Positions 16,951 through 40,362 of a DNA stretch of 64,000 nucleotides are shown here, in pieces; within the stretch, counting starts at the first letter, position 1; each line of letters starts with the position of its first letter. The stretch comes from Rhodospira trueperi (lineage in GTDB: Bacteria; Pseudomonadota; Alphaproteobacteria; Rhodospirillales; Rhodospirillaceae): the NCBI RefSeq assembly GCF_900101965.1, contig NZ_FNAP01000002.1, forward strand, positions 62,001 to 126,000, given 5' to 3'. A program made the position numbers and the translations under genes. The notes below the pieces were generated by a model. It did no database searches. It was not told the origin of the DNA and was given only the letters and a program-made list of their open reading frames with translations.

Positions 16951-17655
16951 TTGAACGACAATTCCACCCCCCTCACCGACGACGCCGTGCTGGCGTACCT
17001 GACCGAGAACCCGGCGTTCCTCGACCGCCGGCCGGAGGCGCTGTTGCATCTGGTGCTGCCCGGCTCGGCGCGCGGCGACGGCGTGGTGGACATCCGGGAT
17101 TTCGTGGTTCGGCGCCTGAAGGACGAACTGCGCGAGATGCGCGACGGCACCGACGCGCTGATCCAGACCACGCGCATCAACATGTCGCTGCTCAACCGCA
17201 CCCATCAGGCGGTGCTGACGGTGTTGCAGGGCGACGAGAAGGGCACGCTGGGCGAGACCGTGGCCGACGACCTGACGCTGCTGTTGGACGTGGACGTGGC
17301 CGCGCTACGCTTCGAGAACGCAGGGCGCCTGCCGGCGCGCTCGGCCCCGCTGGCGACGTTGCCCGAGGGGTACGTGGACATGGTGGCGCCCCGCGAGCGG
17401 CCCATCGCGCTGCGCGCCCAGGCCAAGGGGGACGAGCGCCTGTTCGGCGGTGGCGCCGGGCTGGTGGCCAGCGATGCCCTGGCCCGTCTGGAGCCCGGCA
17501 ACGGGCACCCGCCCGGGCTGCTGGCCCTGGGCGATCGTCACCCCGGCGCCTTCTCGGAGGAGCAGGCCAGTGATCTGTTGTCCTTCGTGGCCCGCGTGGT
17601 GGAACACTGCGTGCGCCAGTGGACCTTCGGCGACCGCCCCGGCGCGCCGGGGTGA
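16951..17655 (+). CDS. DUF484 family protein
   Basis: 234 residues. A TTG start at 16951 is chosen because GGGAGAG lies a few bases before it and homology begins right after; an ATG at 16855 would add 32 unrelated residues across the terminator. It has the DUF484 start AYLTENPAFLDRRPEAL, then a GAF-like fold (about 80-220). The family is widespread in proteobacteria, often next to xerC, and has no established role. Here it is followed by a repeat array instead. Confidence 0.85.
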   Translation: MNDNSTPLTDDAVLAYLTENPAFLDRRPEALLHLVLPGSARGDGVVDIRDFVVRRLKDELREMRDGTDALIQTTRINMSLLNRTHQAVLTVLQGDEKGTLGETVADDLTLLLDVDVAALRFENAGRLPARSAPLATLPEGYVDMVAPRERPIALRAQAKGDERLFGGGAGLVASDALARLEPGNGHPPGLLALGDRHPGAFSEEQASDLLSFVARVVEHCVRQWTFGDRPGAPG

Positions 17656-17687: not shown

Positions 17688-17718
17688 CACGTGATCCGCC
17701 GGATTGCTCGGGATTTGC
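17688..17718 (+). repeat. Degenerate copy of the CAAATC/GATTTG hairpin element
   Basis: GATCCGCCGGATTGCTCGGG followed by ATTTG matches the second half of the array unit that begins at 17736, with a shortened stem. Confidence 0.5.
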
Positions 17719-17735
17719 TCTCATTATTTGACATG

Positions 17736-18026
17736 TACGCAAATCGTCGTCGCGATCCGTTCCGGATCGCTCGGGATTTGTCTTGGCCTTCATCAGTACG
17801 CAAATCGTCGTCGCGATCCGTTCCGGATCGCTCGGGATTTGTCTTGGCCTTCATCAGTACGCAAATCGTCGTCGCGATCCGTTCCGGATCGCTTGGGATT
17901 TGTCTTGGCCTTCATCAGTACGCAAATCGTCGTCGCGATCCGTTCCGGATCGCTCGGGATTTGTCTTGGCCTTCATCAGTACGCAAATCGTCGTCGCGAT
18001 CCGTTCCGGATCGCTCGGGATTTGCG
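17736..18026 (+). repeat. 61-bp tandem array of hairpin element, five units
   Basis: Units start at 17736, 17797, 17858, 17919 and 17980; the last is cut short. Units differ by only single bases. Each contains CAAATC, then GCGATCCG-TTC-CGGATCGC (an 8-base perfect stem), then GATTTG, so the whole core of about 41 bases can fold with CAAATC/GATTTG as outer arms. The linker between cores is TCTTGGCCTTCATCAGTACG. The array lies between the convergent DUF484 and mlaC genes and ends directly at the mlaC stop codon. Related single copies lie at 18838, 29176 and 40281. It is an intergenic REP-like family, not CRISPR, because the 'spacers' are identical. Confidence 0.92.
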
Positions 18027-18704
18027 CTAGGCCGCGTCGAGCATGCGCCCGGTCAGAGCCTTGAGCGCGGCGATCAGGCCGGACAGCCCCTCCCGCTCGC
18101 GGATTGCGGCCCATTCGGAGCGGCGCAGGGCCACCTCGCTGATGGACCCGTCCATCAGCACGTCCACCACGCGTGGCCCATCCCCGCTTTGCGTCACCAC
18201 ATAGCTGAGGATCACGGGGGCCTTGCTCGGGCGGTCGATGTGGGTGTTGACCAGCAGCGTGCCGGCGGGACCGGGCGCGGTGCCGTCGATGTGGAAGGAC
18301 TCGCCGGAATGCCCGTCGAAGCGGTCGGCGTGGACGGCGACGGAGTAGGCGGCAAAGGCCTCGGCCATGCGCTCCTGCGTGTCCGCGTCGGCGTCGCGCC
18401 AGGCCCTGCCGACGGCGGCCCGGGCCATGCGGTCGAAATCGAAGGTCGCGCGCACCGCTTCGTCCAAGACGTCGGCCCGTTCAACGGCGGACAGCGCCTC
18501 CGCGCGGCGCATGACATCCAGCAGCGCGTCCTGGTAGCGGTGGATCAGGTCGGTCGCGGCGGCGGACGGGTCTCCGTTCTCGCCATCGCTGGCACGGGCC
18601 GGGAGCAAGGGCGCGGCCACGATGCCGGCAAGCAGGGACGCGCCGGCCAGGGACAGAAGCCCGCGGCGGGTCGGGCGGGTCGCGGAAAAGGGCTGATCTG
18701 GCAT
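18027..18704 (-). CDS. MlaC/Ttg2D-type phospholipid-binding periplasmic protein
   Basis: 225 residues. An N-terminal export signal with twin arginines (TRRGLLSLAGASLLAG) is followed by a MlaC-like domain: DFDRMARAAVGRAWRDA near residue 85, then YSVAVHADRF and a C-terminal VDVLMDGSIS. MlaC carries phospholipids between the outer membrane and the inner-membrane MlaFEDB complex; the same fold occurs in the hopanoid-linked HpnM, and the sequence alone does not separate them. The gene is alone, without mla partners, and its TAG stop abuts the hairpin array. Confidence 0.85.
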   Translation of the reverse strand: MPDQPFSATRPTRRGLLSLAGASLLAGIVAAPLLPARASDGENGDPSAAATDLIHRYQDALLDVMRRAEALSAVERADVLDEAVRATFDFDRMARAAVGRAWRDADADTQERMAEAFAAYSVAVHADRFDGHSGESFHIDGTAPGPAGTLLVNTHIDRPSKAPVILSYVVTQSGDGPRVVDVLMDGSISEVALRRSEWAAIREREGLSGLIAALKALTGRMLDAA

Positions 18705-18837
18705 TCAGGGGCTCCGGCTGAAACGGTCGGGGCGGCGGACGCGGAACGCTTCATGTCACGCGACACCTGAACCCTGCGCGTCCGGCGTGGCGGAATTGGG
18801 GCCATCGCGCGAAAACGTCGGGACAGGCAGCCTGTCA

Positions 18838-18865
18838 CGATCCGGTCCGGATCGCGCGGGATTTG
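18838..18865 (+). repeat. CAAATC/GATTTG hairpin element, partial single copy
   Basis: CGATCCGGTCCGGATCGCGC followed by GGGATTTG: the same stem and right arm as the 17736 array, with the left CAAATC arm missing. It lies upstream of mlaC and downstream of the epimerase gene. Confidence 0.75.
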
Positions 18866-18945
18866 CTTGTCTTATGGTCCGCCTCGGCTCAATCGGTGAG
18901 ATTGGGCCGCTGGCCGGGAGTGGCCACGCCAGTGCCGGCCTGTCG

Positions 18946-27854: not shown

Positions 27855-29174
27855 ATGCATCGCATTCTCGGGCGATTTCTGGCCGTCATGTTTGTCGCCG
27901 TTGGTTTGGCGACGGCGCCGATCACTCCCGCCGTCGCGCAGGCCACCCTGTATGATTCATTGCTTGCGGACTTCGCTTTCGGTGATTTTGGTGGTCAGCT
28001 TTTTAGCGCCCTCGGCGATTTTTCCGATGGGGGGGATACCCAGAACGATGACGCGCTCGCGGCGTTCCTCAGGACCAGCTACTTCTGGGGAGAAATGGGC
28101 ATTCCCCCTGACCTTGAGGCGTATCTTGCGGCCTACTTCGCGGGGTCGAATGAGATCAGACCCACGCCGGACCCCCGCGCGGTTTTCCAGGAAATCCACG
28201 GGTCCGATGCGGCGGCGATCGAGGGGTCGGGCGCCGTCAGCTTGAACGGCGGCGGACGGCAAATCCGATCGGTGCTGCATCGCAGAACCCGCGCGTTGAT
28301 CAACAAGGCACGGGGCGGCGGGGGCGGCGGCGCGGGTTTTGCCGGCGGCCAGGAGCACTCGGGCCGTCCCGTCGGCGGGTGGGCGCTCGGATTGGCCGGC
28401 GGCGACGCCGAGTCAGCGGTGGCGGGACGCCTCGCCGCATGGAGTGATTTTACCGGCACCCTGTTCGACAACAGCCGATCGCCAGACGGCTTCTACGGGA
28501 GCCAGCTTCTCGGCATGGCCGGGATGGACTACCGGTTCGGTGACTCCTTCATGGGGGGCGTGGCGCTGGGGTTTGAGACTCTGGACGTCGAATTCGGCAG
28601 CGGCCGGAAGCGGGACGTCAGCTATTTCGGCCCCACCCTGTACGGCGCGTACCTGTTGACGGACGAGATCGGCCTGTCCCTGCTCGGGTCCTATTCCCAC
28701 GGATGGAACACCGAGACCGAGGCCAAGGTGATGTCGGGGGCCTCTCACGATCACGGGTCTCACCGCTTCATCGTCGCCGGGACGGTCATGCACAACGCCC
28801 TGTTTGACCGGGTGACGACGTACAGTGCCCTGGGCCTCCTGTACGGGGTCGAGACATTCGAGGCCTACCGCGACAGCGCGGGTTCGGAGGTGCGGCCGCG
28901 CCCCACTCATCTGGGACAGGCTTCGGCGGACGGCAGGCTGGGCCATCTGTTTGATGTGGGCGAAGAGTCGCTCCTCGAACCCTATGTCACCGCGCGTCTG
29001 GAGTTCGACTTCGTGCGCGCCGGCAACACGGATCAGTTCGGCGCCATGGTGGGCGGCGGCCTGCGCCTTGCGGTGGGGGAGTCCGTCAGCCTGGATGCCT
29101 TCGGCCAGACCGACGTGGCGCGCACGGACGAGTCCGCGGTCGACTTCGGTGTGGGGTTGAGGATCCAGTTTTAG
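27855..29174 (+). CDS. Secreted protein with autotransporter-type outer-membrane beta-barrel
   Basis: 439 residues. The signal peptide ends near TPAVAQA (about residue 31). A short domain of about 120 residues with an acidic, aromatic composition and a glycine-rich linker (near 155-165) follow. From about residue 180 there are alternating amphipathic strands typical of an autotransporter barrel (GMDYRFGDSFMGGVALGFE, YGAYLLTDEIGLSLLGSYSH), ending in GVGLRIQF; a C-terminal Phe is the BAM signal. The barrel is family-like, but the passenger region is much shorter than in classical autotransporters. The ligand or function is unknown. Confidence 0.8.
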   Translation: MHRILGRFLAVMFVAVGLATAPITPAVAQATLYDSLLADFAFGDFGGQLFSALGDFSDGGDTQNDDALAAFLRTSYFWGEMGIPPDLEAYLAAYFAGSNEIRPTPDPRAVFQEIHGSDAAAIEGSGAVSLNGGGRQIRSVLHRRTRALINKARGGGGGGAGFAGGQEHSGRPVGGWALGLAGGDAESAVAGRLAAWSDFTGTLFDNSRSPDGFYGSQLLGMAGMDYRFGDSFMGGVALGFETLDVEFGSGRKRDVSYFGPTLYGAYLLTDEIGLSLLGSYSHGWNTETEAKVMSGASHDHGSHRFIVAGTVMHNALFDRVTTYSALGLLYGVETFEAYRDSAGSEVRPRPTHLGQASADGRLGHLFDVGEESLLEPYVTARLEFDFVRAGNTDQFGAMVGGGLRLAVGESVSLDAFGQTDVARTDESAVDFGVGLRIQF

Positions 29175-29175
29175 G

Positions 29176-29219
29176 AAAAATCGCCAGCGACCCGGAACGG
29201 ATCGCGACGACGATTCGCA
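29176..29219 (-). repeat. CAAATC/GATTTG hairpin element, minus-strand copy
   Basis: On the minus strand it reads GCGAATCGTCGTCGCGATCC, then GTTCCGGGTCGC and GGCGATTTTT, matching the 17736 units with a few changes. It begins one base after the TAG stop of the outer-membrane barrel gene. Confidence 0.8.
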
Positions 29220-29396
29220 GAAAAGAAACACCGCCGTAGGGCGCACTCGACCGTCGCGAAAGGGCGGGCCGTGCGCCGCGTTTCCGATCCGCCCCGCCCC
29301 AGTTCTCCTCGATCCAGCGGAGGGAGTCCGGGCGTCGCCCTCCGCCACAACCGAACATGTTGCTGGCGGAAGCGAATGGATCATCCGGATTTCGTA

Positions 29397-39847: not shown

Positions 39848-40264
39848 ATGTCCGAGGCCCTGCGCACGGCGCTGGAGGAGGCGCTCGATTCGGAGTACCG
39901 CGCCGAGGCAACCTTCGAGGCGGCCATCGCCGCCTTCGGGCCGGTCGAGCCGTTCGTCGGCGTGGTGGAGGCGGCGCGGCGCAATACCGATGATCTGTTG
40001 CGCCTGTTCGAGCGGCATGGCCTTGAGCCACCGGCGAACCGTTGGCGCGGCCGGATCCCTAAACCCGCCGATGTGGCCGAGGCCTGCCAGACCGCGCGAA
40101 ACGCCGTTCAGGATGCGGCGGAGTGCTATGATCGTCTGATCGACCGCATCGAGGCGGAGGACGCCCGTGCCGTCATCCAGCGTCTGCGCGACGTCGCCCG
40201 CGCCATGGATCTGCCGATGCTGAAAGACTGCTGTGATCGCAGTCACCATCTCGACTCTCTCTAA
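39848..40264 (+). CDS. Ferritin-like four-helix protein (DUF2202-like), probably without a full metal site
   Basis: 138 residues, all helical. ALDSEYRAEATFEAAIAAFG, then PVEPFVGVVEAARRNTDDLL and LFERHGLEPPANRW, follow the pattern of DUF2202 ferritin-like proteins. In those the third segment usually has an E-x-x-H (for example EARHI); here it reads EAARRN, so one iron ligand appears lost. Starts at 39803 or earlier are possible; 39848 is chosen for GGAGA about 10 bases upstream and because homology begins there. Role unknown, perhaps small-molecule or metal handling. Confidence 0.6.
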   Translation: MSEALRTALEEALDSEYRAEATFEAAIAAFGPVEPFVGVVEAARRNTDDLLRLFERHGLEPPANRWRGRIPKPADVAEACQTARNAVQDAAECYDRLIDRIEAEDARAVIQRLRDVARAMDLPMLKDCCDRSHHLDSL

Positions 40265-40280
40265 TGATTTGATATTCAAG

Positions 40281-40321
40281 CAAATCGACATCGCGATCCG
40301 GTCCGGATCGCTCGGGATTTG
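40281..40321 (+). repeat. CAAATC/GATTTG hairpin element, full single copy
   Basis: CAAATCGACATCGCGATCCG, then GTCCGGATCGCTCGGGATTTG: the same 41-base core as the 17736 array. It lies 16 bases after the stop of the ferritin-like gene. Confidence 0.9.
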
Positions 40322-40362
40322 TTCTAGATCCCGCGCCCCAATCGCGTCATACCAGAGCTCCG

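Follow-up and report, generated by a model that had tools for sequence, protein, structure and literature searches.

A REP-like two-hairpin repeat family of Rhodospirillaceae placed with unusual exactness at stop codons

The 64,000-nucleotide stretch of the Rhodospira trueperi genome analysed here (the window) contains a tandem array of hairpins between two convergent genes. This raises the question of what kind of element the hairpins are and how they came to be repeated immediately behind a gene. A first-pass annotation had described a five-unit, 61-bp array of nearly identical units, with a decayed copy near 17688 and single copies elsewhere in the window, one of them inverted. These observations all hold. 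The tandem repeat finder TRF gives a 61-bp period with 4.8 copies and 99% matches at 17735-18024, and the core GCGATCCG-TTC-CGGATCGC, which is enclosed in the units by CAAATC/GATTTG arms, recurs exactly in 61-bp steps at 17752, 17813, 17874, 17935, and 17996. With covariance-model matches, the array of five units extends over 17733..18029 on the minus strand, the sense of the gene that precedes it (units at 17977-18029, 17916-17968, 17855-17907, 17794-17846, and 17733-17785). Their 41-nt hairpins are the same but for a single base in one of the units. The decayed sixth unit can be read in the sequence at the 3' end of the array in gene sense (17688..17722, minus strand; no model match). The first three bases of the array (18027..18029) are the TAG stop of an MlaC-like gene on the same strand (18027..18704; PF05494, 111.5 bits), and a convergent DUF484 gene lies on the other side (16951..17655, plus strand; PF04340).

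The window also holds single cores at 18837, 29187 (inverted), and 40293. The first belongs to a decayed copy away from stop codons (18817..18870, minus strand; model E 0.005). The second lies in a copy on the plus strand (29172..29224) that begins with the TAG stop of a gene with an autotransporter domain (27855-29174, plus strand). The third is part of a copy on the minus strand (40274..40326), whose 3' spacer reaches the TAA stop (40262-40264) of a convergent gene (39848-40264, plus strand). Allowing up to three mismatches, the core has 15 matches on the two strands of the window, against 0.11 expected by chance. A 12-bp tandem repeat of 9.8 copies (CACGATCACGGG) at 2088-2255 of the window is probably a histidine/aspartate-rich stretch of a gene.

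The window belongs to a 4.21-Mb draft assembly of 50 contigs (G000). Across this genome, the core with at most two mismatches was found 103 times on the forward and 116 times on the reverse strand, compared with 0 and 1 for a reversed-pattern control; as the core is almost a palindrome, many sites enter both totals. With R2, a covariance model of the hairpin, 97 matches were obtained at E<=0.01. The core is thus far from confined to the window, and these counts, like those within the window, rule out a chance origin of the family. That the repeat is an artefact of assembly is extremely improbable: the copy number of the array does rest on a draft of 50 contigs, but arrays occur in several independent assemblies. 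We dropped one match that overlaps another on the opposite strand (C29:114944), and the remaining 96 copies form 83 loci once arrays are collapsed. Five loci are arrays of two to five units, that is, four in addition to the one in the window. The dispersal and local tandem growth proposed by the annotation are thereby borne out.

Genes around the 97 matches were called with a simple home-made codon-model caller trained on the window. The overlap of a match with a called gene never exceeds 12 nt, which extends to the whole genome the intergenic placement noted in the window, and a gene on the same strand lies upstream at 70 of the 83 loci. There is no recurrent neighbour gene among the 134 flanking proteins: judged from the 25 most frequent of their 245 Pfam families, the top families have at most four members and look like ordinary cell genes, with no transposase among these 25. 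At one locus (C12:64111), a copy abuts a REP of the type associated with REP-associated tyrosine transposases (RAYTs) (CCCCAACCTAC|GAGC), an arrangement which suggests that it inserted beside or within another repeat.

The 41-base core is only one half (H1) of an element of about 105 bp. The other half is a second hairpin, H2, which rules out a simple 41-bp unit. In the sense of the upstream gene, H1 reads TAGAGCAAATCCCGAGCGATCCGGANCGGATCGCGACGACGATTTGC, and H2, about 20 nt further on, reads TAGAGCGCGTTGCGTGA...TCACGCAACGCGCTCTA. The full element in gene sense starts with H1 (TAG-AGCAAATCC...GATTTGC), continues through some 20 nt of spacer with NTAG as its last bases, and closes with H2 (AGC...GCTC-TAG). 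We assessed covariation in 115 fixed-length copies from R. trueperi and its relatives (111 distinct), which were kept by their CTA-like right end, a filter that took no account of pairing. Standard pairs fill 88.2% of the pair cells in the 111 copies, against 81.7% after shuffling and 27-38% when the positions are slid. A subset of 91 copies reaches 91.3%, a value that favours pairing because the other 20, several with a degenerate H2, were excluded by eye. Bases have changed on both sides in 15 of 17 pairs of H2 and 6 of 17 pairs of H1 (111 copies), and between species the H1 core passes from GATCCG/CGGATC to GATCTG/CAGATC or AATCTG/CAGATT with pairing kept. H1 and H2 are therefore two covarying hairpins. 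Each can stand alone, as H1 does at C14:583844 (an H1-only insertion) and H2 at C7:79704, and full units of about 103 bp occur in tandem in two relatives (contig C342 of G005 and C15 of G024), whereas the tandem units of the window array consist of H1 only. Variant heads with an extra ACA (TAGAGACAAGCAAATCC) were seen at loci L255, L310, and L326 and at 18817-18870 of the window; they occur in several species and perhaps represent a subfamily.

The R2 model has matches in 12 of the 73 genomes of the taxonomic family, representing 6 of its 23 genera. Their number varies widely: 25 in G001, 3 in G002, 38 in G003, 6 in G004, 147 in G005, 57 in G024, and 91 in G031, which we take to be Rhodospirillum rubrum ATCC 11170. 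The matching records include Roseospira visakhapatnamensis, R. marina, R. navarrensis, and Roseospirillum parvum, as well as metagenome-assembled genomes of Rhodospira, Rhodospirillum, and Azospirillaceae. One further genome (G020, genus g16) has 42 weak matches to the H1 model, the best with E 8.7e-7, and may carry a divergent high-copy branch. Carriage by viruses was ruled out, with 0 matches in viral contigs.

The position of the element relative to genes is unusually exact. In 37 of the 70 loci that have an upstream gene on the same strand, the element begins with the stop codon of this gene (31 TAG, 3 TGA, 3 TAA). Downstream, the TAG of a convergent gene coincides exactly with the end of H2 at 9 of the 42 loci that have such a gene. 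Some loci have stops at both ends, so that the element is the entire intergenic region (e.g., C14:299404 and C29:139633). Among the 46 abutting stops, 44 could be matched to well-scored genes; TAG accounts for 38 of these 44, against 27 of 152 other genes (Fisher p 6e-17). The base before the abutting stop, whichever the codon, is C or T in 34 of 44 cases and G in 5, compared with C or T in 8 of the 27 background TAG stops. CTAG is itself rare in the window (9 occurrences against 187 predicted from base composition). In about half of the loci there is no stop codon at the element edge, and copies away from stops often have a decayed TAG (GAG, TGG, CAG).

The same pattern is found in relatives. 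We scored 76 loci in six other assemblies, picked by an exact match to canonical H1 (two are cut by a contig edge): of the 44 upstream genes on the same strand, 24 have their stop exactly at the element (21 TAG, 2 TAA, 1 TGA), and no locus shows a gene overlap. In G031, where the best-scoring 29 of 86 matches were scored and one of two tandem neighbours was omitted, the upstream gene ends exactly on the element in 10 of 19 cases (7 TAG, 3 TAA), and the TAG of seven convergent genes falls at the end of H2. The REP-like reading of the annotation thus stands as regards dispersal and tandem growth, but it had overlooked the exact placement at stop codons, the second hairpin, and a RAYT gene elsewhere in the genome.

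Placement directly behind stops could result from selection on a structure in the 3' untranslated region, the hairpin being kept as an mRNA stabiliser, a ribosome-stalling element, or a terminator. The hairpin lies directly behind the mlaC stop and may indeed act there as a 3'-UTR stem-loop. At 37 of 70 loci the element follows the stop in gene sense, which fits such a role, as does the folding of one full 105-nt copy as RNA (-49.8 kcal/mol, z -7.0); PMC12306157 reports ribosome stalling by Escherichia coli REPs that lie within 15 nt of a stop codon. Yet one full copy folds equally non-randomly as DNA (-35.8, z -7.8). G-U pairs are not significantly commoner than A-C mismatches in the 111 copies (29 versus 21 and 97 versus 86 in the two helices), so that no preference for the RNA strand, and no selection for RNA pairing, is visible in these cells. 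Selection alone would produce a spread of distances rather than an offset of exactly zero. No T-tract terminator lies on the gene-sense strand at the array: the three matches of the terminator search are weak and all on the plus strand, whereas mlaC is on the minus strand, and this candidate was rejected. Rfam gave no match at E<=1, which also rules out a known RNA family. We therefore consider it unlikely that an RNA function sets the position of the element.

Exact placement may otherwise arise because the element inserts at stops or because it provides them. We compared 29 of the 37 exact-stop loci with the closest sister genome, G002, which is up to 96% identical at gene ends and has three copies of the family; five of the 29 gave no usable match. 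In all 17 orthologues that align fully (at least 201 of 203 nt), the G002 gene stops at the same codon and the element is absent. The stops at these sites are 13 TAG, 2 TAA, and 2 TGA in R. trueperi, and 11 TAG, 2 TAA, and 4 TGA in G002, where the share of TAG still exceeds the background of 27 in 152 (binomial p 2.4e-5). Seven further sites align in part: one has a TAG past a small indel, one a TAG two codons on, three a TGA at or near the position (including mlaC), and two are ambiguous. This suggests that the family usually inserted precisely behind pre-existing stop codons, mostly TAG. The preference for (Y)TAG is not absolute: 4 of the 17 sites have TAA or TGA in R. trueperi itself, and a strict YTAG target cannot account for all of them.

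A general supply of TAG by the element, which would shorten or re-terminate the genes, is distinctly unlikely in view of these 17 shared ends, 11 of them already TAG in G002. The abundance of TAG among abutting stops (38 of 44) would nevertheless be expected from such a process, and some sites are compatible with it. At the array locus, the mlaC genes of G002, G003, and G004 stop at the same codon, which is TGA, TAA, and TGA, respectively, and the element is absent (in G005 a separate copy lies further along, and G001 has no copy). At right ends, three G002 genes stop at the same codon as in R. trueperi, one with TAG and two with TGA, so that two of the three are TAG here and TGA there. Hence, the element may have supplied the TAG in some cases.

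Six sites align closely on both flanks, two of them exactly and four more within 14 nt. At the two exact empty sites, C49:371649 (CTTTAG|AGACC in G002) and C14:422944, TAG stands on either side of the insertion in R. trueperi, which fits a target-site duplication and a TAG carried by the element equally well. The former would be expected of a miniature inverted-repeat element (MITE) mobilised by a DDE transposase, with a TA or TAG target duplication and GAGC...GCTC terminal repeats; IS5- and IS630-like elements are examples of DDE families. The TAG at both ends, the short GAGC/GCTC inverted ends, and the compatibility of the empty sites with a 2-3-bp duplication speak for this origin. We nonetheless hold it to be improbable: the terminal inverted repeat would be only about 4 bp, neither TAA nor TGA stands at the right end in the few readable cases that have one of them as the left stop, and none of the loci read holds an autonomous copy, with a transposase enclosed by H1 and H2.

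The annotation had seen no associated transposase in the window, and this extends beyond it. The genome encodes a single RAYT (NCBIfam NF047646, 191.5 bits, contig C10), which is flanked by a different REP family (GTAGGTTGGGG...; GTAGGTTGGGGTGAG...CTCACCCCAACCTACG), a normal RAYT-type REP; H1/H2 was found neither at its flanks nor beside the RAYT-like genes of G004 and G031. Moreover, neither a RAYT nor a Y1 transposase was found in G001, G003, G005 (88% complete), and G024, which still carry 25, 38, 147, and 57 copies. The resident RAYT is therefore unlikely to mobilise the family, and we rejected it as a candidate. More broadly, H1/H2 could be a GTAG-type REP moved by a RAYT, be it resident or lost. 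A RAYT gene is present, the TAG-containing foot and the hairpin resemble REPs, and PMC3733652 gives gene 3' ends as the typical location of REPs, but the flanks of the RAYT genes and the copy-rich genomes lacking them leave this explanation with little credibility. The RAYT gene and its REP pairs (L031:1123-2139; C10, about 136267-137283) lie between the copies of a perfect 91-bp direct repeat that takes in the 3' end of the upstream open reading frame, an arrangement resembling the duplication of a long target upon insertion.

Comparison with known repeats places the family close to several of them. Like GTAG-REPs and RAYT-associated REPs (PMC3733652 and PMC2817692), it consists of short, dispersed, intergenic hairpins downstream of genes with a terminal TAG, and its distribution (97 matches, no gene overlaps, 70 of 83 loci behind a same-strand gene) is that of GTAG-REPs. 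Unlike these, it has two different hairpins per element and the foot (Y)TAG-AGC instead of GTAG (TAGAGC, with C or T before the stop in 34 of 44). Unlike RAYT-associated REPs, it does not flank a RAYT (C10, G004, G031) and abounds in genomes without one. CGTC-REPs are described in PMC3733652 as prevalent in alphaproteobacteria and lacking a transposase, with stems of 8-9 bp starting with A-T, loops of 4-5 nt, mostly a CCA tail, and rare clusters. H1/H2 shares with them the alphaproteobacterial host, the lack of a dedicated transposase, an inner H1 stem of 8 bp, and CGTC right before this stem in the array units (CGTCGTC-GCGATCCG); among the aligned copies, conservation of the complementary GACG is 90% or higher. 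In contrast with CGTC-REPs, the H1 stem starts with G-C, the loop has 3 nt, a CCA tail is missing, and CAAATC/GATTTG adds an outer stem. Given these differences in stem start, loop, and tail, and a foot that is not GTAG, we place the family in neither superfamily.

BIMEs and RIMEs are mosaic elements with two palindromes. H1/H2 resembles them as a two-palindrome composite of about 100 bp, with a different sequence and host, and we know of no stop-codon-exact insertion for BIMEs or RIMEs. PATEs are miniature elements derived from IS200/IS605, and H1/H2 is like them in having a hairpin at each end, a short target at the left, and a matching short motif at the right. It differs from IS200/IS605-derived elements in that four copy-rich genomes have no detectable Y1 transposase, although such an enzyme may have been lost or have diverged. 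Word matches in the open-access literature returned no description of H1/H2 and no work on repeats of Rhodospirillum or Roseospira, and the main text of PMC3733652 does not mention Rhodospirillum or Magnetospirillum. According to the same source, flanking open reading frames often owe their TAG stop to the terminus of a GTAG-REP; the kind of phenomenon is thus known.

Taken together, H1/H2 is best read as a real, uncatalogued REP-like hairpin family of Rhodospirillaceae with unusually exact placement at stop codons. We regard the array in the window, with a probability of roughly 0.6, as the product of local amplification within a family of non-autonomous, REP-like mobile DNA hairpins that prefers (Y)TAG targets. 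A transposition machinery would place the hairpin on the 3' side of (Y)TAG. YTAG is rare in this genome of 68% GC and TAG stops would be safe, so that surviving copies would gather at TAG stops. The NTAG end of the element would in turn create a new target at its 3' end, a fresh site for the next copy, which makes head-to-tail stacking possible. The array in the window would then have grown by ordinary tandem duplication, as suggested by its junctions, which have lost the TAG (CCAAG in its place) and are alike between units. A more specific version, which we offer only tentatively and with less than even confidence, is that a machinery other than Y1 picks stop codons (YTAG, sometimes TGA or TAA), with the 3' end of each element as its own landing site, allowing harmless spread and stacking.

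The empty sites of the sister genome appear to provide a clear case of a REP-like repeat landing on an already present stop codon. They separate a repeat that provides the stop from one that targets it, a distinction left open by the remark on GTAG-REPs in PMC3733652. The family also makes concrete the question of what moves REPs that lack a transposase. Its occurrence in cultured Roseospira and Roseospirillum, and presumably in R. rubrum, would open both its mobility and its influence on the 3' ends of mRNAs to experiment.
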